Source of the DNA: Candidatus Vecturithrix granuli
GTDB taxonomy: Bacteria; Moduliflexota; Moduliflexia; Moduliflexales; Moduliflexaceae
Assembly: GCA_000739535.1 (NCBI GenBank)
Contig: DF820466.1
Span: 656,234-694,851 of the forward strand
DNA length: 38,618 nt
Direction of reading: 5' to 3'
The notes beneath the pieces were generated by a model. The model ran no database searches, had not been told where the DNA came from, and worked only from the letters and a program-made list of their open reading frames with translations. Shown piece after piece: positions 6,912 to 27,886 of this stretch. The translations under genes were made by a program, and so were the position numbers. Numbering within the stretch: the stretch's first letter is position 1; each line of letters begins with the position of its first letter.

Positions 6912-8312
6912 ATGCAAAAAAAATTTTTATGTTCTATAAACATTTTCATTGTCGGCCTCGTAATGCTGCGCGGATTACTGTATTGCCTGGTGATCCCCTT
7001 TGATCAGGCTCCTGATGAAAGACTCCATTTTCTGTTGATCAAGGCAAAACATCTGCAATTAACCGGGGCGTCATTGGAGGAAAAACAGCGTGTTGCCTCA
7101 CAAATCGAGTTTTTCTGGTATCGCTCACTTTACCCGGAAACAAAACGAACTCAGGAAAATTTTACCAGTGGATACCTTCCTAATCCCCCTTCTTCCATGC
7201 ATTTATATTATTTCATGACAGGTTGGTTACTGAATGTGTGTTCGCTTGAACATATCCGCGATGAAATCTATCTGTTGCGTGGCTTTTCGATCCTGTGTGG
7301 CATGATCGTTATTATTTTTGCGATATTAATTGCACGCGAAGTATTTCCAAACGACCATTTTCTCCGGATCGGTATTCCGATATTTATCGCCTTTGTGCCG
7401 CAATTTTCCGCTATGAACGGCGTGATCAACAACGATAAATTAGCCGAGGTCTTTGCGTCCTTGCTTTTCTGGATCCTGGTCAATCTATTCAAAAACGGAT
7501 TGTCATGGCAATCAGGTGCAGCGTATATCATCGTTGCTCTCCTGGGCCTGATGAGCAAACGCACAATGGTTTTTATCCTGCCTTTGTCGCTTATTGCGCT
7601 CTTTGTGTATTATTGGAAAGGACTGATCGGTGTGAAAATGCATCTATTCCTGTTTGGCGGAATCTTCATCATCACACTGTCAGCCTATCTATTGCTCTGG
7701 CATCCGACGCTGCATGATCTGGTGAGCAAGTATGTTATCAGTATTCCTGAATCACCGTATTTGCTGGAAAAGCTCTTTCGTCCGGAATTGTTTTCGAACG
7801 CTACTCTGCTGTATATAGCCAAATTTTTTACGGTCATGTACTGGGGGTTCTGGGGTATTTTCGGCAATATGACGATTCGCCTGCATCATTTCTGGTATGT
7901 TGTTGCGGCCTTTGCCCAGTCGCTTGCCATCGCCGGACTGCTGAAATACACTATGCACACCAAACGCTGTGTGTTCCTCTCTGCTTCAGAGGCGAATCAG
8001 GGCGAGAAGTTGAAGATATGGCAGGCAAAAATTTGCTATCTGTTCGGTGTAAGCATTGTGCTGTGGGTAATTATCCCGGTCTTTCGTTCGATTATCTTGC
8101 GTTTTGATAGGCCGGATTTGACTCAGGGTCGCTACCTGTTTACGGTCATGATTCCGGTGAGCATGCTGACTATGTTTGGTCTGTTCACAATCTTTCCAAA
8201 GAAATATCACCCCTGGGTCGGGGGAATCGGTCTGTGTGCGATGCTCCTTTTTGACACAGTGGCATTTATTAATTACCTTTTGTTGAATTTTCATAATGCG
8301 GCATTTTTTTAA
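6912..8312 (+). CDS. DUF2142-like multi-spanning membrane protein
   Basis: This 466-residue protein has about 11-12 hydrophobic segments. Features recalling DUF2142 and GT-C-like membrane proteins are an early PFDQAPDERLHF motif after the first helix, NNDKLAE in the middle, and a conserved QGRYLF near residue 415. Such proteins occur in polysaccharide loci and are thought to be membrane glycosyltransferases or polymerases. The acidic Asp-Glu pair in the first extracytoplasmic loop fits a GT-C catalytic site. It overlaps the next gene by 17 bp, so the two are probably co-translated. Family placement is from motif memory and activity is inferred. Confidence 0.6.
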   Translation: MQKKFLCSINIFIVGLVMLRGLLYCLVIPFDQAPDERLHFLLIKAKHLQLTGASLEEKQRVASQIEFFWYRSLYPETKRTQENFTSGYLPNPPSSMHLYYFMTGWLLNVCSLEHIRDEIYLLRGFSILCGMIVIIFAILIAREVFPNDHFLRIGIPIFIAFVPQFSAMNGVINNDKLAEVFASLLFWILVNLFKNGLSWQSGAAYIIVALLGLMSKRTMVFILPLSLIALFVYYWKGLIGVKMHLFLFGGIFIITLSAYLLLWHPTLHDLVSKYVISIPESPYLLEKLFRPELFSNATLLYIAKFFTVMYWGFWGIFGNMTIRLHHFWYVVAAFAQSLAIAGLLKYTMHTKRCVFLSASEANQGEKLKIWQAKICYLFGVSIVLWVIIPVFRSIILRFDRPDLTQGRYLFTVMIPVSMLTMFGLFTIFPKKYHPWVGGIGLCAMLLFDTVAFINYLLLNFHNAAFF

Positions 8313-9033
8313 ACAATACAATTATTTAATAACATCGGCGATTTCGATCATGATCCTGCTGGCTGGTGTCTTGTTTTTCTCCGGAAATGGCGTCGTCATC
8401 GGACAACATGAAAACCAAACTGATATTCGTCTTGAAATCGGCTTCTTGTCCAGAGATATGCGGATTGAACAAACTTTTTTAGCCTCGCAAAATAACCTGA
8501 CGCGCATAGATTTCCGGCTCGACTCACATCGTCCGTGGGATACGCCATCTCTGGTTTGCCGCTTATTCGAATTAGACATTCAGGCGCAGCCCGCAGAATT
8601 GTCATATCAATCGCTGAACGAACATCTGATCGAAGTTCGTTCACAACGCTTAGATGGCTGGCTGTTGTCACCGCATACCTATAACACGTTTGCGTTTGAG
8701 CCGATCCCGGATTCCCAGGGGAAACGCTATCTGCTTTCAATTCAGGCACCGGACTTGAAACAAGGCGGGAGTACCATTATCTTAGCCAGTCCTAAAAAAA
8801 GGTTTGAGTCTGATCAGTTTTTTGTTGGCAATCAACCCAAAAACAGCGATTTGGCGTTTCGCGCTTTATATGCCCTGCCCAGATACCAGCTCATCCCCAA
8901 AACTGCCGCCCATGTCGCCCTACAAAAACCGTTTCCCTTCTCACAACCCGCCGTTCTCTATCTTTTAGTCGGCCTTTATTTTACGCTGCTCTTTCTATTA
9001 GTATGGCGGTTGAGCAGATCTGGCGTTTGCTAA
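8296..9033 (+). CDS. Hypothetical membrane protein with large external domain
   Basis: I do not recognise a named family. The 245-residue product has a membrane helix at about residues 12-32, a beta-rich external region of about 180 residues, and a second helix at about 218-238 ending in basic residues (WRLSRSG). The external part contains IEQTFLASQNNLTRIDFRLD, a phrase like those in jelly-roll domains associated with membrane glycosyltransferases. The gene starts inside the end of the DUF2142-like gene, so the two products probably work together, perhaps as a catalytic membrane subunit and a carbohydrate-contacting partner. Confidence 0.6.
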   Translation: MRHFFKQYNYLITSAISIMILLAGVLFFSGNGVVIGQHENQTDIRLEIGFLSRDMRIEQTFLASQNNLTRIDFRLDSHRPWDTPSLVCRLFELDIQAQPAELSYQSLNEHLIEVRSQRLDGWLLSPHTYNTFAFEPIPDSQGKRYLLSIQAPDLKQGGSTIILASPKKRFESDQFFVGNQPKNSDLAFRALYALPRYQLIPKTAAHVALQKPFPFSQPAVLYLLVGLYFTLLFLLVWRLSRSGVC

Positions 9034-17662: not shown

Positions 17663-18412
17663 ATGGCTTCTCAAAGTAAATTGAACATTCTTGCAATTAT
17701 TCCGGCCAGAGGCGGATCGAAATCCATTCCGCGTAAAAATATCCGCCTGCTCGCCGGCCATCCGCTTATTGCGTACAGTATCGCCGCCGGATTAGCCGCT
17801 AAATCGGTGACGCGCCTGATTGTTTCGACGGATGATCAAGAAATTGCTGAAATTTCCCGCGGCTATGGCGCAGAAACGCCATTTTTGCGTCCGGCGGAAT
17901 TTGCACAGGATGACACGCCTGATTTGCCGGTCTTTCACCATGCCCTGTCGTGGTTAGAAGAACAGGAACGCTATCGTCCTGACATCATTGTCCACATACG
18001 CCCTCCGGCCCCGTTGCGTCCTCCGCAGTTGATTGATGAAGCGGTTAAACTTTTGTGTCAGACTCCGGAGGCAGACAGTGTGCGCGGCGTCGGCATCGCC
18101 CACCACACCCCCTATAAAATGTGGCGCACGAGCGACGATGGATTTCTGACGCCGCTGTTGACAGATACATCCGGCGAGCGATATAATATGCCGCGCCAAT
18201 CTTTGCCGACCGTCTATTGGCACACCGGACATATTGATGTCATGCGTTACGATACCCTGATGTACAAAAACTCCATGAGCGGCGACCAAATTCTGCCGAT
18301 TGTCATCGATCCCCTCTATTGTATTGATATTGATACGGAAGATGAGTGGGTATATACCGAATGGCTTATGATGAGTGGAAAAATCCCTATTTTGCAGCCT
18401 CGGCGCCAATAA
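17663..18412 (+). CDS. neuA: CMP-nonulosonic acid cytidylyltransferase (NeuA/LegF/PseF family)
   Basis: This 249-residue protein has the CTP-binding loop PARGGSKSIPRKN at residues 14-26, VSTDDQEIA, and IRPPAPLRPP, a variant of the family's RPTSPLR. The family C-terminal motif IDIDTEDEW is also present. It activates a nine-carbon acid such as sialic, legionaminic or pseudaminic acid with CMP for transfer to a glycan. It is 9 bp upstream of the NeuB fusion, so condensation and activation are adjacent. The length is typical for single-domain family members. Which nonulosonate is used cannot be read from the sequence. Confidence 0.92.
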   Translation: MASQSKLNILAIIPARGGSKSIPRKNIRLLAGHPLIAYSIAAGLAAKSVTRLIVSTDDQEIAEISRGYGAETPFLRPAEFAQDDTPDLPVFHHALSWLEEQERYRPDIIVHIRPPAPLRPPQLIDEAVKLLCQTPEADSVRGVGIAHHTPYKMWRTSDDGFLTPLLTDTSGERYNMPRQSLPTVYWHTGHIDVMRYDTLMYKNSMSGDQILPIVIDPLYCIDIDTEDEWVYTEWLMMSGKIPILQPRRQ

Positions 18413-18421
18413 GGCAACATT

Positions 18422-20683
18422 ATGATTATCGAAAGAGATATTAGTCCGTATGTGGTGTTAGCGGAGGAAAGTATTTTTAACGCCCTGCAAAAAATTAACG
18501 ACAATCATAGTGCTGTGGTGTTTTCCATCACGGATTCAGGTGTCCTGGAAGGCGCTCTATCAAATGGCGATTTTCGACGTTGGTTGTTGACCCAATGCGG
18601 TACAATTGATCTGGACCAGCCGCTTTCGAACATTTCCAACAAAAACCTCGTTTTTGCCTGGCAAACGGACGATCCAAAGACGATTCAGCAGCGGTTTCGC
18701 GATTGGATTGACTATATTCCTCTTCTTGACCAGCAACGCCGTGTCATAGCGATTGCTCGTAAACGAAAATCTTCCGAAGGTATTCAGGTGGGTTCGTTTA
18801 CGATTGCGGATGATTCGCCAACCTTTGTGATTGCTGAGATTGGCATCAATCATAACGGCAGCTTGCAGATCGCGAAGCAGCTTATTGAAAAAGCGGTGTT
18901 AGCAGGCGCGAATAGCGCCAAGTTTCAAATGCGCAATTTGGCGTCGTTATACCGTAATCAGGGCAATCCCAATGATGCGAATGAGGACCTTGGCGCGCAA
19001 TATACCCTGGATTTGCTCACCCGATTTCAACTCTCCGTAGAAGAAATGTTTGAAGCGTTCGATTATTGTAAGGCCAAAGGGATTCTCCCGCTATGTACGC
19101 CCTGGGATATTGATAGTTTAGAGGTTCTCGAAAAATATGGCATGGAGGCCTATAAAGTGGCCTCTCCGGACTTTACTAACCATGATTTTATTCGACGGTT
19201 GGCTCAAACCGGGAAGCCCTTATTTTGTTCAACCGGGATGACCACTGAATCCGAAATTTTGGAAACCGTGGAACTGCTGAATCGCATTGGCGCAAAATAT
19301 GTGCTGCTTCATTGTAATTCTACCTATCCAACGCCATTTAAAGACGTCAACTTAAACTATTTGACAAAGCTGAAAGAAATCGGTCGCTGTCCGGTAGGAT
19401 ATTCCGGTCATGAACGCGGCATTATGATCCCAATAGCGGCGGTCGCAAAAGGGGCAAAGGTGATTGAAAAACATTTGACGCTTGATAAGGCCATGGAGGG
19501 CAATGATCATAAAGTCAGCTTACTGCCCGATGAATTTGCGGAGATGGTGCAGGGAATTCGGCAGATCGAGGAGGCTTTCGGCACGTCAGTTGAACGACAA
19601 CTTAGCCAGGGTGAACTTATGAATCGGGCGAATTTGGCTAAAAGCCTGATATGCACCATGGAATTAAAGCCTGGAGAGGCCATTACAGAGAAACACATTA
19701 CGATCAAAAGTCCAGGGAGAGGATTACAACCAAACCGCAAAAATGAATTGATTGGATTACGCGCCAAGCGGCACATCAGGGAGGGAGATTTCTTTTTTCC
19801 TAGCGATCTGGTGCAAGAACAGGTGCAACCACGGTTCTACACGTTTTCGCGCCCCTGGGGGGTTCCGGTGCGCTATCACGATTTTAAGACCATCTTAAGC
19901 CATACTAATCCGGATTTTTTGGAGTTTCATCTCAGTTATAAAGATTTGGAATTAGAAATCGAACCATTTTTTGAACGCTCCTATGATCTTGACCTGGTCG
20001 TTCATAGTCCTGATGTTTTCGCAGGAGATCATCTCTTGAATCTGGCGGCAGCCGATGAGGAGTATCGGCGTCGCTCGATCGCCGAGCTGCAACGTGTGAT
20101 TAATACAACGCGAACATTGCAGCAATTCTTTACACGAGCATCACGTCCTCGAATTGTCGCCAGCCTTGGTGGATTCACAACTGAGGGCCTACTGCCTCGT
20201 TCTGCCAGAGAGGAATTGTATGCCCGTATTCACCAGAGCCTGTCAGAATTAGATGCTGATGGCGTCGAGATTATCGGACAAACTTTACCGCCCTTTCCCT
20301 GGTATTTCGGCGGGCAATTATATTTGAATCTCTTTGTAGAAGCAGATGATTCCATCGCTTTTTGCCAACGCTATGGTTACCGGTTGTGTCTTGATATTTC
20401 TCACTCGAAGTTGGCTTGTAATCATTATCACCATTCGTTCAAGGAATTTATCGAAAAAGTGGGAGCCTACACATCACATTTGCACATTGCTGACGCCCAC
20501 GGGTTAGACGGCGAAGGATTACAAATTGGCGATGGCGAAATTGATTTCCCTGCTCTTGCAGAGGATCTGGCACAGTGGGCTCCGAAAGCTTCCTTTATTC
20601 CGGAAATTTGGCAAGGACACAAAAACAATGGTGAAGGCTTTTGGATTGCTTTAGAACGTTTAGAAAGATATCTATATCTGTAA
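18422..20683 (+). CDS. neuB: NeuB-type nonulosonic acid synthase fused to CBS pair, SAF domain and xylose-isomerase-like TIM barrel
   Basis: This 753-residue protein is about twice the usual NeuB length. Residues 1-115 look like a CBS-domain pair (SNGDFRRWL; DYIPLLDQQRRVIAI). Residues about 130-395 are the PEP-dependent synthase barrel, with VIAEIGINHNG at 136-146, AKFQ, CTPWD, KVASPD, STGM, LHCNSTYPTP, YSGHERG and KHLTLDK. Residues 401-465 are the SAF/antifreeze-like lid (GRGLQPN). Residues about 470-753 are a second TIM barrel of the AP-endonuclease-2/xylose-isomerase family, with HSPDVF, LDISHSKLA, HLHIADAHG and GDGEIDF supplying likely metal ligands. NeuB condenses a six-carbon amino sugar with PEP. 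The second barrel may be an epimerase or isomerase acting on a substrate or product. Confidence 0.93.
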   Translation: MIIERDISPYVVLAEESIFNALQKINDNHSAVVFSITDSGVLEGALSNGDFRRWLLTQCGTIDLDQPLSNISNKNLVFAWQTDDPKTIQQRFRDWIDYIPLLDQQRRVIAIARKRKSSEGIQVGSFTIADDSPTFVIAEIGINHNGSLQIAKQLIEKAVLAGANSAKFQMRNLASLYRNQGNPNDANEDLGAQYTLDLLTRFQLSVEEMFEAFDYCKAKGILPLCTPWDIDSLEVLEKYGMEAYKVASPDFTNHDFIRRLAQTGKPLFCSTGMTTESEILETVELLNRIGAKYVLLHCNSTYPTPFKDVNLNYLTKLKEIGRCPVGYSGHERGIMIPIAAVAKGAKVIEKHLTLDKAMEGNDHKVSLLPDEFAEMVQGIRQIEEAFGTSVERQLSQGELMNRANLAKSLICTMELKPGEAITEKHITIKSPGRGLQPNRKNELIGLRAKRHIREGDFFFPSDLVQEQVQPRFYTFSRPWGVPVRYHDFKTILSHTNPDFLEFHLSYKDLELEIEPFFERSYDLDLVVHSPDVFAGDHLLNLAAADEEYRRRSIAELQRVINTTRTLQQFFTRASRPRIVASLGGFTTEGLLPRSAREELYARIHQSLSELDADGVEIIGQTLPPFPWYFGGQLYLNLFVEADDSIAFCQRYGYRLCLDISHSKLACNHYHHSFKEFIEKVGAYTSHLHIADAHGLDGEGLQIGDGEIDFPALAEDLAQWAPKASFIPEIWQGHKNNGEGFWIALERLERYLYL

Positions 20684-20768: not shown

Positions 20769-21539
20769 ATGGAGATTGAGAACTGGAGATTGTGGAACCA
20801 TTATAAAAAATATGGCGATCTGTTATACAAACGAGCTATAGGAGAACTTGAGGAAATGGAGTCATCAAAAGCTCTGTGTCAGATTATTGACCGGCTCTAC
20901 CAACCCGGTATGCGTGTTGCCGACGTGGGATGCGGGGCGGGCCATTATCTTAGAAGTTTGCGTCAGCGAATAGATGTAAACATTGATTATACCGGGATTG
21001 ATGCAACCGAATATTATATCGAATTAGCGCGAAAAGCGTTCCCGGAAAAAGTGCAATTCCTGGTAGGTGACATTTTTGAGATTCCCGTTGAAGATGCCAT
21101 GTACGATCTGGTCCTGAATAATAATGTCATTCTACATCTTCCCCCTCCACCAATAAAAGCGTTTGGAGAGCTTCTTCGCATCTCCAAAAAGTATGTCGTC
21201 ATTCGAACAACATTCGGCGTCAGAAATTATATCATCAAAGAAGTGTTGACTCGAGAGGAGGGATTTGAAAGCGTTGAACAATCAGAATCTGCTTTAATCC
21301 AGCCAGATGGCGATTTGTCTCTCTTCCGCTATTTTAATCTGTACACGGAAACCTATATTCGCGAAGTTATTCAGACTCTTGATCCCACAGTTCAAATTGA
21401 AATTATCAAAGATGATATGTGGGCCAGCTTTGATAACCGTGAACTTACTACACAAACCGGAACGCGAATTCTGGACAATATCCAGGTTTCGGGAAATATC
21501 GTTTTAGATTGGAGATTTATTGTTTTGACAAAGAAATAA
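20769..21539 (+). CDS. Class I SAM-dependent methyltransferase
   Basis: The 256-residue product has motif I VADVGCGAGHY at about 50-60, YTGIDATEYYIELAR after strand 2, FLVGDIFEIPVEDAMYDLVLNNNV for motifs II-III, and RISKKYVVIRTTFG for the following strand. A strong GGAGAAATT precedes the ATG. It lies between the nonulosonate genes and the surface carbohydrate gene, so O- or N-methylation of the nonulosonate or a neighbouring sugar is possible. The family is clear but the substrate is not. Confidence 0.8.
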   Translation: MEIENWRLWNHYKKYGDLLYKRAIGELEEMESSKALCQIIDRLYQPGMRVADVGCGAGHYLRSLRQRIDVNIDYTGIDATEYYIELARKAFPEKVQFLVGDIFEIPVEDAMYDLVLNNNVILHLPPPPIKAFGELLRISKKYVVIRTTFGVRNYIIKEVLTREEGFESVEQSESALIQPDGDLSLFRYFNLYTETYIREVIQTLDPTVQIEIIKDDMWASFDNRELTTQTGTRILDNIQVSGNIVLDWRFIVLTKK

Positions 21540-21618
21540 GGCCCTACGTCTTTACATAATTTAAAGGCTCATGCTTGGGAGGAACAGGGACTAAGAAGTC
21601 TTGCCATACGAGGATACA

Positions 21619-22998
21619 ATGAATTTATATCTACCAATTGAAACCAAAGTTCGAGAATTTGACGCCAAGTTCTTACTATCCTGTGTTGCTGCGGAAGCGG
21701 GTTATACTGTGATCCTGGGGCATAAAAAGCTGCTTGATAAACGTCTGGACCAGATGCCGCCGGGCATATTTCTTGATAAGAGTATGCCTGAGCGGAATAT
21801 CTCGAGATATTTGCACTACAAAAAACTTGGATTCACGTTAATCGCCCATGATGAAGAAGGAATTGCTCCTCTGAATCTGGATGAATATCAGAGACGCCGA
21901 CGTTATTCCAATGAGACCCTCGCGCCTTTTGAATATGTCCTGACCTGGGGACAATGGCAGGCGGATTTTATCGCGGCAAAGGCCCCGCTCTATAAGGAAA
22001 AATTGAAGGCTACCGGACACCCACGCGTTGACTTGACACGCAGCGAATTTCGAGCATTTTATGCTGAAGAGGTCCAAAAATTGCGAGAACAGTATGGACC
22101 AATGATTCTGATTAACACCAATTTTATGTTGGGCAATCATTTCCTCGGAGATGATGGTGTCATGGAACTCCTGGAAAAATCCGGGAAAATTCCTGACGAA
22201 GAGCAGCGGCAATATTATCTGGGACTGCAAGAGCACCATAAAATCTTATTCCATGAATTTGCAGCGATGATCGTGAAACTGCAAGAGCGCTTTGCTGATA
22301 GCACCATTATTGTTCGTCCTCATCCGTCTGAAAATCATGAGACCTGGAAACATGCGCTGCCATCTACTGACAAGGTGCAGGTGCTCCATGAAGGCAATGT
22401 GCTGCCCTGGCTTATGGCGGCCCAGGTTATGATTCATAATAGCTGCACCACAGGAGTAGAGGCCTATCTGCTGGAACGACCGGTGATTGCTTACCTTCCA
22501 ATACGCAATGAGGCGTTTGAGGGCTATCTGGCAAATCCTCTGTCAGAAATAGCTTTCACCTGTCAGAAGGTGCTTGACACGGTGGAGCGTTATCTTGAAA
22601 ATGATCTGACTGTACAATCGGATCCTCAAAAGCAGGAATTGGCAAAACATCATATTACTGGTCTGGATGGAGAGCTTGCATCGGATCGAATTGTCAGGCT
22701 CTTGAATACCGTGACGCTCACGCCAGGAAACGTAAACCAGACAGCCTATCAACTGTATCATCGTTTCAAAAAAACCGTACGCAGCAACAAAATATTGCGA
22801 CGCCTGCTATTCGGTACGAGTGTAAATTCCCGCAACAATTTGGCAGAACAGCATAAAAAACAGAAGTTCCCTGGCATTGAACGTGATGAATTATTTGTAT
22901 CTCTGGCAAAACTGCAAACCCTGTCAGGCAGGTTTGCTAGTATTCAGATTGTCTCACTGGCGCCCAATCTGTTCCAAATCACCCGGGGTGAGCGTTGA
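21619..22998 (+). CDS. Surface carbohydrate biosynthesis protein (TIGR04396-like)
   Basis: A TTG at 21601 is in frame, but GAGG six bases before the ATG at 21619, and the conserved opening MNLYLPIETKVREFDAKFLL, favour 21619 (459 residues). The N-terminal half (AGYTVILGHKKLL; LTWGQWQADF; KATGHPRVDL) and the C-terminal half (IIVRPHPSENHETW; MIHNSCTTGVEAYLLERPVIAYLPI) match my memory of the 'surface carbohydrate biosynthesis protein' family. That family has a GT-B-like fold resembling CDP-glycerol glycerophosphotransferases and capsule synthesis enzymes. The RPHPSE and HNSCTTG motifs would form the nucleotide site. It overlaps or abuts the next gene. Confidence 0.75.
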   Translation: MNLYLPIETKVREFDAKFLLSCVAAEAGYTVILGHKKLLDKRLDQMPPGIFLDKSMPERNISRYLHYKKLGFTLIAHDEEGIAPLNLDEYQRRRRYSNETLAPFEYVLTWGQWQADFIAAKAPLYKEKLKATGHPRVDLTRSEFRAFYAEEVQKLREQYGPMILINTNFMLGNHFLGDDGVMELLEKSGKIPDEEQRQYYLGLQEHHKILFHEFAAMIVKLQERFADSTIIVRPHPSENHETWKHALPSTDKVQVLHEGNVLPWLMAAQVMIHNSCTTGVEAYLLERPVIAYLPIRNEAFEGYLANPLSEIAFTCQKVLDTVERYLENDLTVQSDPQKQELAKHHITGLDGELASDRIVRLLNTVTLTPGNVNQTAYQLYHRFKKTVRSNKILRRLLFGTSVNSRNNLAEQHKKQKFPGIERDELFVSLAKLQTLSGRFASIQIVSLAPNLFQITRGER

Positions 22999-23000
22999 CA

Positions 23001-23816
23001 ATGCAATATATAGAATTCCTTGGAATTCCCGGTTCCGGAAAAACAACGGTGATGCAGAAGACACTGGTGGCCTTACAGGCCGAAAAGAAACCGGTGTTTT
23101 CCACCCCTGACGTCCGTAAGATCGCCATGCGTCACACCTTGCAGCGCCAGTCAGGCTTTTGGTGGCAACTCGCGAAAATCACAGCCCTTGTGGGGGAATC
23201 CCGAGTATTGAGTTTGCTCTGGGAGAAAACACGATCGGCCTATATGATTCGTTTTATGCATGCCTATCCCCGACTCAGCCGTCAGGTGATCGAATGTACG
23301 GAACACGTTCATCCGCCGGATTGGATTCCTCGTGACGTGGTCTGCGGTGAAAATCTGCTCAAGTGGCTTTTAGGTGGAGTTGCCAGTTGTTATCAGGCTG
23401 CATATCAGATCTTAGCCTCTGGCGATATTTTCCTTATGGAAGAGGGGTTTTGTCAGTATGCCTATTACTTATTAGCGTTCTATCAGGGCAGTTTTGATGA
23501 ACAGCGACTGGAATCGTATCTTGACCTGATTCCGAAACTAGATCTGCTTGTAGCGCTGCTGCCGCCGCCTGAAGAGTGTGAAAAGCGGATGCACTCCCGA
23601 TCCAAAGGCGTGGCATCTCAGATTTTAACTCCGCTCAGCGTTGAGCAGCGTTTGAACATTTTACGCCATCGCACACGCGTCAATCAAAAAATTACCGCGT
23701 ATATGGAAAAACATCATGTTCCGGTTGTACGCTTAGAAAATACAGATTATCAGACAACCCATGTCATTCTGGCAAGACATCTGAAAAGTTTCTGCTCTGC
23801 TCAGAGTTCAGTTTAG
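23001..23816 (+). CDS. P-loop kinase-like protein
   Basis: This 271-residue protein has Walker A GIPGSGKTT at residues 8-16, in the arrangement of small-molecule kinases (adenylate/thymidylate/gluconate-kinase superfamily). The lid region around ECEKRMHSRSKGVASQ recalls nucleoside-kinase lids. A TTG at 22995 overlaps the upstream stop; the ATG at 23001 is spaced better from GGTGAG. It follows the surface carbohydrate gene with essentially no gap. A sugar, lipid or alcohol kinase for a glycan decoration is possible. I do not recognise a named family, and the Walker motif argues against a sulfotransferase. Confidence 0.7.
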   Translation: MQYIEFLGIPGSGKTTVMQKTLVALQAEKKPVFSTPDVRKIAMRHTLQRQSGFWWQLAKITALVGESRVLSLLWEKTRSAYMIRFMHAYPRLSRQVIECTEHVHPPDWIPRDVVCGENLLKWLLGGVASCYQAAYQILASGDIFLMEEGFCQYAYYLLAFYQGSFDEQRLESYLDLIPKLDLLVALLPPPEECEKRMHSRSKGVASQILTPLSVEQRLNILRHRTRVNQKITAYMEKHHVPVVRLENTDYQTTHVILARHLKSFCSAQSSV

Positions 23817-24958: not shown

Positions 24959-25885
24959 ATGGATTCATATAGCCTTTCTTATCTCAAACAGTTAGAATCG
25001 GAATCAATCCATATCATCCGCGAGGTAGTAGCTGAGTGCAAAAACCCGGTCATGCTCTATTCAGTGGGCAAAGATTCGAGTGTGATGATCCGCCTGGCCC
25101 AAAAAGCCTTTTACCCGGGGAGATTTCCATTTCCTCTGATGCATGTTGATACCGGCTATAAATTTCCGGAAATGTACGACTTTCGTGATCAATTCTGCAA
25201 GCAGATCGGAGCGAAGTTAATTGTAGAACGCAACGAAGAATGGATCGCCAAAGGCGCGCATCCTCTTAATTTGGGCACTGACACTTGTTGTGCGCATCTG
25301 AAAACTCAGGGATTATTAATGGCGCTCAAAAAACATGGGTTTGATGCGGCGTTTGGCGGCGCACGACGGGAAGAGGAAAAATCCCGCGCTAAAGAGCGAG
25401 TCTGTTCGATTCGCGATGAATTTGGCCAATGGGACCCGAAAAATCAACGACCAGAACTCTGGGATTTGTATAATACCCGTCTGAATGAAGGACAATCCAT
25501 TCGCATATTTCCTTTGAGTAATTGGACTGAAATTGACATTTGGAGTTACATTAAACTTGAGAAGATTCCTGTTGTACCATTGTATTTTGCGCAGCAGCGC
25601 GAGGTAATCGAACGCCAGGGCATACTGATTCTGGCTTCTTCATACTCGATAGTCGCCAATAATCCCAAAGCCATGATTGCGCCGAAGGATATTGAAGTCG
25701 CCTCCTGTCGTTTTCGTAGTCTGGGCTGCATGCCCTGCACCGGGGCCGTGCGTTCAACCGCGACAACCGTTGATGAAATCATTGAAGAATTACGTCATGT
25801 CAAGAAATCGGAACGCGAAAACCGGCTCATCGATCTCGGCAGCGACGCGGCCATGGAACAGAAGAAGAAAGAAGGGTATTTTTAA
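24959..25885 (+). CDS. cysD: Sulfate adenylyltransferase subunit 2 (ATP-PP loop)
   Basis: This is a full-length 308-residue CysD. The family opening ([16 protein letters not shown]) is followed by the PP-loop [14 protein letters not shown] at about 34-47. Then come [32 protein letters not shown] and the C-terminal [24 protein letters not shown]. With CysN it makes APS from ATP and sulfate in the cytoplasm. The ATG at 24959 has no clear ribosome site. It sits at the end of the glycan locus. No APS or PAPS reductase gene is in the window, so sulfonation of the glycan is a possible purpose, though assimilation elsewhere cannot be excluded. Confidence 0.96.
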
Positions 25886-25978
25886 GGGACTAAAAGGAGC
25901 TAACGGGACTAAAGGGACAAGTGAGCTAACGCTTGAAGATCTTTCAACTTTAGTCCCTTTAGTCCCGTTAGTCCCTTC
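25884..25978. repeat. GGGACTAA-unit palindrome between cysD and cysNC
   Basis: The gap between cysD and cysNC is filled by an inverted repeat. The left arm is 25884-25918; the right arm (about 25952-25977) has the reverse complement of its outer 9 and inner 16 bases. The left arm carries an extra 10-base unit (AAAGGAGCTA) between them. Units of about 8 bases (GGGACTAA-like) recur. The resulting hairpin in the mRNA ends just before the cysNC start, which has no visible Shine-Dalgarno sequence, so it could affect cysNC translation. Confidence 0.8.
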
Positions 25979-25981
25979 TTC

Positions 25982-27886
25982 ATGATGGAACAGAAAGAGA
26001 AAACACTGCTGCGCTTTGTAACGACGGGGAGCGTTGATGACGGGAAATCCACGTTAATTGGGCGGCTGTTGTATGAAACCAAGACGATTTATGAAGATCA
26101 GCTTGCCGCCGTCGAAAAAACCTCAAAGAAAAAAGGCTATGAAGAAGTTGATCTCGCGCTCCTGCTCGATGGATTGTCGGCCGAACGGGAACAAGGAATT
26201 ACCATAGATGTGGCCTATCGCTACTTTGAAACGTCCAAACGCAAGTTTATCATTGCCGATACGCCCGGACATGAGCAATATACGCGCAACATGGTCACAG
26301 GCGCCTCCACAGCGGATTTGGCGATCATTTTAATTGATGCGCGTAATGGCGTGCTGACCCAATCCAAACGGCATGGATTGCTTGTGTCCTTGCTGCAAGT
26401 GCCTCATCTGGTCGTGGCAGTCAACAAGATGGATCTGGTGGATTATTCCCAGGCCGTCTATGATGAGATCGTGGCAACTTATCAGAGTTTTTCTGAAAAA
26501 CTGGATATTCACGACCTCACCTTTATCCCGGTTTCGGCCTTGAAAGGGGATAACATCATTACCAGAAGTTCCAATATGCCCTGGTATGACGGTATGCCAT
26601 TGTTGCACTACCTGGAACATGTCCATGTAACCCAGGATCGGAATCTGGTAGATACCCGTTTCCCGGTGCAGTATGTGATTCGTCCGCACCAGGATTTTCG
26701 CGGGTTTGCCGGTCGAATGGTCTCAGGCATCTTACGCCCCGGCGAAGAAATTGTGGTGTTGCCTTCCGGGAAAAGTTCAACCATCCGCTCCATCGAGACC
26801 TATGACGGGACGCTTCAGGAAGCCTTTCCGCCTCAATCGGTGGTAGCGACGCTCAATGATGAAATTGATGTCAGTCGCGGCGATATGATCGTGCGTACCA
26901 ATAACTTACCCCAGATCAGTAATCATTTTGGCGCAATTTTGTGCTGGATGGATGACCGGAATTCCTTGTCGCAAAGTACATCCTATTACCTCAAACATAC
27001 CACGCGCACCGTCAAAGCTTTTGTGAGCCGTCTGATTTACAAAATTGATGTCAACACCCTGCACCGTGAACAGACGAACACTCTGAATCTGAATGAAATC
27101 GGCCGAGTTGAAATTAAAACCTCACTGCCGATTTTTTTCGATTCCTATAAAACCAATCGTCAAACTGGCAGTTTTATCCTGATTGATCCGGTAACGCAGA
27201 ATACAGTGGCATCTGGCATGATTCGAGATGTGGTCCGTACCCTTGAAGAGGTGACAGAAGCGCAAAAAGAGGAACAACAGCGGCAAAAATCAACGCATGT
27301 TGTCTGGAAAGATTTAAACATTCCACGCCTGGAACGGGAGCGACGTCATGGGCATAAATCCGCCGTCCTCTGGTTTACGGGTTTATCGGGTTCCGGTAAA
27401 ACGACCATTGCCCGACGATTGGAAAAATTGCTTTTCGAGCGCGGCTGCCAGACCATGCTGCTCGACGGGGATCATCTGCGGCACGGCTTATGCGGCGATC
27501 TTGGGTTTTCTGATGAGGATCGCAGTGAAAATATCCGCCGCGCCGGCGAAGTGGCGCGACTCTTTTTTGAAAGCGGCCATATTGTGCTCTGCACCTTTAT
27601 TTCCCCCTTTAAAAAGGATCGAGAGGCTGTTCGTGCGCTTCTGCCCGCGGGTCAGTTTTTTGAAATTGCGGTGGAATGCGATCTTGAGGTGTGCAAACGC
27701 CGCGACCCCCATGGCCTCTATCAAAAAGCGATTAAAGGAGAAATTGCTGAATTTACAGGGATTTCTTCGCCTTACGAAGCCCCTGAACACCCAGAGCTTC
27801 GCGTTGAAACGGATTTGCAAAGCGTGGATGATATTTTGGAACAGCTTCTGACCGTTTTACACCAACAGACCATATTTCTTTCATAA
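25982..27886 (+). CDS. cysNC: Bifunctional sulfate adenylyltransferase subunit 1/adenylylsulfate kinase
   Basis: The product is 634 residues. Residues 1 to about 430 are CysN, a translation-factor-like GTPase, with P-loop GSVDDGKST at 16-24, DTPGHEQYTRNM from about 93, and NKMDLV at about 148-153. Residues about 445-634 are APS kinase (CysC), with P-loop GLSGSGKTT at 467-475, LDGDHLRHGLCGDLGFS, the substrate-lid SPFKKDREAVRALL, and GLYQKAIKGEIAEFTGISSPYE. CysDN makes APS and CysC phosphorylates it to PAPS, the universal sulfonate donor. The N-terminal ATG ATG offers 25982 or 25985. NC fusions are common in Proteobacteria. Confidence 0.96.
   Translation: MMEQKEKTLLRFVTTGSVDDGKSTLIGRLLYETKTIYEDQLAAVEKTSKKKGYEEVDLALLLDGLSAEREQGITIDVAYRYFETSKRKFIIADTPGHEQYTRNMVTGASTADLAIILIDARNGVLTQSKRHGLLVSLLQVPHLVVAVNKMDLVDYSQAVYDEIVATYQSFSEKLDIHDLTFIPVSALKGDNIITRSSNMPWYDGMPLLHYLEHVHVTQDRNLVDTRFPVQYVIRPHQDFRGFAGRMVSGILRPGEEIVVLPSGKSSTIRSIETYDGTLQEAFPPQSVVATLNDEIDVSRGDMIVRTNNLPQISNHFGAILCWMDDRNSLSQSTSYYLKHTTRTVKAFVSRLIYKIDVNTLHREQTNTLNLNEIGRVEIKTSLPIFFDSYKTNRQTGSFILIDPVTQNTVASGMIRDVVRTLEEVTEAQKEEQQRQKSTHVVWKDLNIPRLERERRHGHKSAVLWFTGLSGSGKTTIARRLEKLLFERGCQTMLLDGDHLRHGLCGDLGFSDEDRSENIRRAGEVARLFFESGHIVLCTFISPFKKDREAVRALLPAGQFFEIAVECDLEVCKRRDPHGLYQKAIKGEIAEFTGISSPYEAPEHPELRVETDLQSVDDILEQLLTVLHQQTIFLS

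Follow-up and report, generated by a model that had tools for sequence, protein, structure and literature searches.

Introduction

Sialic-acid-like sugars are found on flagella, capsules and LPS, and surveys predict bacterial nonulosonates by whether NeuC, PseB/G or LegB/G is present. The closest described synthases, Neisseria NeuB/SiaC, Campylobacter PseI and LegI, are formed by a NeuB domain and a SAF (antifreeze-like) domain, with catalytic residues for PEP, the metal and the sugar hydroxyls. In Neisseria NeuB the SAF-domain Arg314 is highly conserved and holds the ManNAc N-acetyl group in position (PMC6795526). A second type is known from the Kdn-9-phosphate operons, where Man-6-P is condensed with PEP and the product is then dephosphorylated to Kdn. 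In Bacteroides thetaiotaomicron the operon consists of a phosphatase, a synthase and a CMP-Kdn synthetase, and a Kdn-9-P synthetase is described from Prymnesium parvum (PMC6200933).

Here, we analyse a gene from Candidatus Vecturithrix granuli that shares the NeuB and SAF domains with these enzymes and in addition contains a CBS pair and a second barrel. It lies in a stretch of 38,618 nucleotides, referred to as the window. In the open full-text literature, which is a part of the whole literature, we found neither a description of this four-part architecture nor a characterised member.

Results

A four-part protein in a surface-glycan cluster

The gene is a single, uninterrupted, ATG-initiated frame of 753 residues on the forward strand (18422..20683), according to the ORF reading of the window. 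The protein consists of a CBS pair, a NeuB synthase, a SAF domain and a xylose-isomerase-like barrel, in this order. The N-terminal CBS pair covers residues 1-117 (18422..18772, +). The NeuB synthase TIM barrel follows at residues 119-400 (18776..19621, +), where Pfam NeuB (PF03102) matches residues 154-389 with an E-value of 1e-82 (277.6 bits, cut-off 22.1) and the sequence can be aligned with the solved NeuB, PseI and SpsE. The SAF domain (19622..19822, +) is matched by PF08666 at residues 409-464 (E 5e-9, 37.1 bits, cut-off 21), so that both curated cut-offs of a NeuB protein with SAF are passed. The C-terminal barrel, residues 471-753 (19832..20680, +), is matched by AP_endonuc_2 (PF01261) at residues 519-736 (E 9e-19, 68.6 bits, cut-off 31.1). 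Three Pfam domains over the cut-off in one frame agree with the four parts that the preliminary description had proposed, as does a 77-sequence family alignment. The full-length AlphaFold2 model has a pLDDT of 92.2 and a pTM of 0.69, and the barrel alone a pLDDT of 95.8; the domain arrangement of the full-length model was left out of the evidence.

The four-part gene begins 10 bases behind a NeuA/PseF-type cytidylyltransferase (17663..18412, +; CTP_transf_3, PF02348, E 3e-17). Its best NCBIfam model is PseF, below the cut-off (153 of 205.7 bits), and it is the likely partner for CMP activation of the product. Directly downstream of the four-part gene there is a methyltransferase (20769..21539, +; Pfam Methyltransf_31, 4.5e-17), followed by a TIGR04396 surface carbohydrate biosynthesis protein (21601..22998, +; 368 bits, cut-off 125), which assigns the gene to a surface-glycan cluster. 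In the wider window there are glycosyltransferases and an ABC exporter, and PAPS-forming genes follow downstream. These (24959-27886) lie where the glycan cluster ends and code for a CysD-like protein with a PAPS_reduct domain and for a fusion of CysN with APS kinase; the glycan may be sulfated. A small P-loop protein at 22995-23816 has weak AAA/dTMP-kinase similarity and no family over the cut-off; it may be kinase- or sulfotransferase-like. Two adjoining proteins of 466 and 245 residues (6912-9033) have no Pfam match at 1e-5.

The source genome (8.38 Mb) belongs to a sparsely sampled phylum. On another contig it has a separate NeuC adjoining a short canonical NeuB frame of 267 residues (G000 C17:197195-199064, L002). 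This is a second nonulosonate route, whose NeuB is perhaps damaged or short.

Distribution and relatives of the family

We scanned 84,980 species genomes with two motifs of the barrel. This search confirmed 457 relatives, and the best 80 of the 457 were read. In 71 of these 80 loci, from many phyla, the CBS pair, NeuB, SAF and barrel are found in one frame; in the rest the CBS pair is absent or the gene is cut by a contig end. The family is present in Cyanobacteria, Bacillota, Proteobacteria, Verrucomicrobiota and others. A protein from the Ensifer canadensis plasmid pT173e aligns over the whole length with 52% identity, and its gene is also located directly behind a NeuA gene. We considered a chance fusion, a frameshift artefact and an assembly join, and rejected them because the same order of parts recurs in 71 of 80 loci and because of the full-length Ensifer match.

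The barrel is almost never separate. At an E-value of 1e-12, no stand-alone barrel was detected in evenly sampled sets of 244 cyanobacterial and 274 gammaproteobacterial genomes. The four-part family itself has a clear member in 16 of the 244 cyanobacterial genomes, together with one distant member lacking the CBS pair, and it is found in 3 of the 274 gammaproteobacterial genomes. Only L073, among the loci read, has a barrel without NeuB in its frame. In this Arsukibacterium MAG (L073:9000-10858) a NeuB-type frame and a separate barrel frame are present, probably split by a frameshift. A search of a phage collection gave no relative of the four-part protein.

The four-part sequences are monophyletic, with a support of 0.96 in one tree and 0.989 in another. 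Forms without the CBS pair are scattered over at least four places in the tree, which indicates that the CBS pair is dispensable. The counts contain some duplicates: L117-L119 repeat L076, L055 and L040, and the L079 and L081 sequences are the same. The 87 aligned sequences therefore correspond to about 83 distinct ones. L079, from a MAG labelled Actinomycetota, and L081, from Sphingomonas corticis, have the same length and an identical N-terminal part, a probable contamination of the MAG. In L065, L079 and L081 the stop-to-stop frames exceed 1000 residues. A further N-terminal fusion with NeuA was considered for these and rejected, as the extra stretch has no domain match; it probably represents the adjacent gene in a different reading frame.

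Neighbour clusters were built from mechanical ORFs. Among the 72 loci with sufficient room, 60 have a NeuA homologue at a distance of up to 1.5 kb from the four-part gene, in 59 cases on the same strand. A methyltransferase cluster is found in 19 of 82 homologous loci. In cyanobacteria the neighbours include Wzm/Wzt exporters, and in Sporolactobacillus they include flagellin, FliD/FliS-like genes and an MptE-like (Maf-type) protein. Near some of the copies there are PtmA-like SDR and Gfo/Idh genes.

The synthase part differs from canonical NeuB at the SAF arginine

The active-site residues of NeuB are kept (E139, K167, Q169, S328, H330, E349, H351), each at least 97% conserved in the 77-sequence alignment. 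The family differs from Neisseria NeuB/SiaC, PseI and LegI at three other sites. At the position of the SAF arginine there is a serine, Ser430 (codon 19709-19711); it is Ser in 86 of the 87 aligned four-part sequences (about 83 distinct), whereas Arg is found in 24 of 26 canonical synthases. The surroundings of the metal-binding His read SGHE instead of the canonical SDHT, and Asp250 takes the place of a Glu. These motifs presumably resemble those of the animal sialic acid 9-phosphate synthases, a likeness that was not used as evidence.

Among the NCBIfam equivalogs, the best model is the N-acetylneuraminate synthase NeuB_NnaB (TIGR03569), below its cut-off with 317.3 of 399.65 bits, and PseI (TIGR03586) is below its cut-off as well (239.8 of 340.25 bits). 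A plain N-acetylneuraminate or legionaminic acid synthase to which accessory domains have been added would fit the identity of the best model and the separate NeuC of the source genome, but both equivalog cut-offs are missed and a serine has replaced the arginine of the N-acetyl site. On account of this replacement a ManNAc/GlcNAc-type substrate, suggested in the preliminary description, is unlikely, the more so as the nearest relatives lie in operons of the Kdn-9-phosphate type.

These relatives form the sister group of the four-part clade with a support of 0.999. Its members are synthases without SAF, about 290 residues long, and a cytidylyltransferase-NeuB-SAF fusion, L146, which shares the Ser at the SAF Arg position. 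A KdsC-type HAD phosphatase is adjacent in all four sister loci examined, compared with 1 of 82 four-part loci (Fisher, 2e-6). Of the sister-locus HADs, three were compared with NCBIfam, and each of the three is over the KdsC-subfamily cut-off; that of L146 also passes the Kdn-9-phosphatase equivalog (KDN-9-PPhBT, 242.7 bits, cut-off 180), while those of L121 and L151 pass the subfamily cut-off only. In L146 (787-2532) the cytidylyltransferase, NeuB and SAF are found in one protein, and the Kdn-9-phosphatase-type HAD is located about 0.6 kb downstream. L121, L122 and L151 are Bacteroidota homologues without SAF, directly behind the KdsC-type phosphatase. Many SAF-less NeuB frames were seen, several of them with a single in-frame stop within the aligned part, close to the expected gene end.

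The likeness of the four-part family to the Kdn-9-P type consists of the common NeuB fold, the linked or adjacent cytidylyltransferase and, via the sister group, the KdsC-type phosphatase next door together with SGHE (in SAF-less members) or the SAF Ser (in L146). The comparison was made through the sister loci. In contrast to the Kdn-9-P operons, the four-part family has a fused CBS pair and a second barrel, and 81 of 82 loci are without an adjacent phosphatase. The sole locus with an adjacent HAD is L080, a weak match of 58.9 bits. At the genome level, a KdsC-type phosphatase over the cut-off is found in 4 of 19 four-part genomes and is absent from the other 15, including the source genome.

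Suppliers of the six-carbon substrate

We checked 29 genomes with a four-part gene, mostly without completeness values, for canonical NeuB, NeuC (TIGR03568) and PseG (TIGR03590). NeuC or PseG is over the cut-off in 16 of the 18 genomes that have an additional canonical NeuB, compared with none of the 11 in which the four-part NeuB is the only one (Fisher, 2e-6). PseB and LegB are likewise not over the cut-off in any of these 11 genomes; three of them, the drafts G022, G030 and G031, contain LegB-like genes that come close to the cut-off without reaching it. The NeuC of the source genome adjoins its own canonical NeuB. These results support that the four-part NeuB does without the known suppliers of the six-carbon substrate, as was suggested earlier, and the lack of dependence on NeuC/PseG sets it apart from Neisseria NeuB/SiaC, PseI and LegI. 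They also argue against the plain N-acetylneuraminate or legionaminic acid synthase.

The CBS pair

In the window copy, CBS at residues 8-56 is below the Pfam cut-off (20.1 bits, cut-off 24), but homologues pass it (44.4 bits in L065). The first repeat has the T/S-x-x-D ribose motif of CBS (Bateman) modules, S47 and D50. T/S at position 47 and D at position 50 are found in all 77 aligned members having the module. The half-site thus has a nucleotide-binding motif, in line with the nucleotide sensing suggested before. Judged by this motif, the CBS pair is likely a nucleotide-sensing module.

The second barrel has an altered metal site

The nearest solved folds to the barrel model are the D-tagatose-3-epimerase-like MJ1311 (3wqo, Z 24.6), an L-ketose 3-epimerase (5h1w, Z 24.1) and endonuclease IV (5zhz, Z 23.3). 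The three lie within about 1.3 Z and agree with the PF01261 assignment. In the isomerases and epimerases of this fold, the first Glu is both a metal ligand and the catalytic base. Endonuclease IV is a phosphoesterase of the same fold that uses three zinc ions, and the relatives also include dehydratases needing one base.

In an alignment with E. coli Nfo, UlaE, FrlC, Hyi, YcjR and YgbM, and in a profile match to MJ1311, the superfamily Glu falls on Gln620 (codon 20279..20281, +), which is Gln in 87 of 87 family sequences. D658 (20393-20395), H661, H688 (20483-20485) and E728 (20603-20605), spanning 20393..20605 (+), are each invariant in the same 87. The metal-binding motifs expected from the preliminary description are therefore present for three of the four classical ligands (D658, H688, E728), and the first is lost. 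Glu616, a candidate ligand picked by eye, was rejected because it is N, V or K in distant members. Also invariant in the family are R484, D487, E501, H503, H528, W627, E698 and H733, of which R484, D487, H503, H528 and H733 are family-specific.

The barrel shares the fold, the Asp-His-Glu part of the metal site and the DxxH motif with the ketose 3-epimerases and MJ1311. It differs from them by the Gln in place of the first Glu, by the invariant R484, D487, H503, H528 and H733, and by always being fused to NeuB. The site thus reads Gln620, D658, H688, E728 rather than Glu-Asp-His-Glu with two catalytic Glu. A standard two-glutamate epimerase is for this reason unlikely, and the isomerase or epimerase is not supported in the form first put forward. 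With endonuclease IV (Nfo) the barrel shares the fold and the positions of D179, H182 and H216; unlike Nfo, it has Gln at E145 and no counterpart of H109 or of the insertion with D229 and H231, and it lacks a DNA context. Its site is enzyme-like, as read from the conserved residues, but neither that of a textbook epimerase nor that of endonuclease IV.

Discussion

Our best explanation, to which we assign a probability of roughly 0.45, is that the protein is a Kdn-9-phosphate-type synthase whose fused barrel does one further step and whose CBS pair tunes the flux, forming a two-gene route with NeuA. The NeuB part would be of the sugar-phosphate type rather than a Neu5Ac/Leg/Pse synthase. It would form a nine-carbon 2-keto-3-deoxy acid by condensing PEP with an aldose of six carbons that lacks a 2-N-acetyl group; this aldose would most likely be a hexose 6-phosphate, for instance mannose 6-phosphate. 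The barrel would then perform a step needed before activation of the product by NeuA, the CBS pair would sense a nucleotide, and the two genes together would provide a CMP-nonulosonate for a surface glycan or flagellin. We infer substrate, product, barrel reaction and CBS ligand from sequence comparison, the substrate from the relatives and one residue. The SAF Ser, the KdsC/Kdn-9-P operons of the sister group and the lack of NeuC, PseG, PseB and LegB in the 11 of 29 genomes with only this NeuB point to a hexose-phosphate synthase as the most likely reading, while the LegB-like genes near the cut-off in three of these genomes speak against it.

For the barrel, the single most likely role is removal of the 9-phosphate in place of a separate KdsC-type phosphatase, a proposal that we make tentatively. 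As the four-part loci lack the phosphatase of the sister group, the pathway would most simply be completed if the barrel took over the absent step. However, the Asp229/His231 insertion and His109 of endonuclease IV are absent, L080 has both a barrel and an adjacent, weakly matching HAD, which means that the barrel does not have to stand in for the phosphatase, and general sugar phosphatases have been argued to be redundant (PMC6200933), so a missing KdsC homologue proves little. Somewhat less probable is that the barrel makes the six-carbon substrate by isomerising or epimerising a common sugar or sugar phosphate into the aldose of NeuB. Ketose 3-epimerases at Z 24, the missing suppliers and the SDR and Gfo/Idh genes near some copies would agree with this, but the invariant Gln removes one of the two acid/base glutamates, Glu616 is not conserved, and a ketose 3-epimerase alone would yield no aldehyde for NeuB.

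It is less probable again, and in our judgement unlikely, that the barrel acts on the nonulosonate, for instance by C4 epimerisation or by a beta-elimination dehydration beside the 2-keto group, with a rare compound as the result. On a 3-deoxy acid, epimerisation at C3 cannot occur; the C-terminal location after the synthase, the one-base dehydratases of the fold, the kept second Glu (E728) and the invariant Arg484, which could hold a carboxylate or phosphate, are all compatible with this role. A catalytically dead, structural or regulatory domain, bringing the synthase together with NeuA or the CBS pair, would explain both the Gln and a barrel that is always fused, yet R484, D487, H503, H528, H661, H688, E728 and H733 are invariant to distant members. 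So many polar or charged positions are not expected of a dead domain, and we regard this as improbable. The plain N-acetylneuraminate or legionaminic acid synthase appears equally doubtful.

Returning to the Kdn-9-phosphate-type synthase, NeuA and the four-part NeuB might in a broader form, held with some reserve, constitute a widespread two-gene pathway from a central hexose phosphate to a CMP-nonulosonic acid, in which the Glu-to-Gln barrel would be a new phosphatase or other catalyst and the CBS pair would exert nucleotide control. A self-contained synthase with a metal-barrel step could make CMP-Kdn or a new nonulosonate accessible by a simple enzymatic route. By annotation the family would pass for an N-acetylneuraminate synthase, yet in the phyla named above it is found without NeuC, PseB/G and LegB/G genes, so the survey predictions of nonulosonates would be wrong for these carriers.
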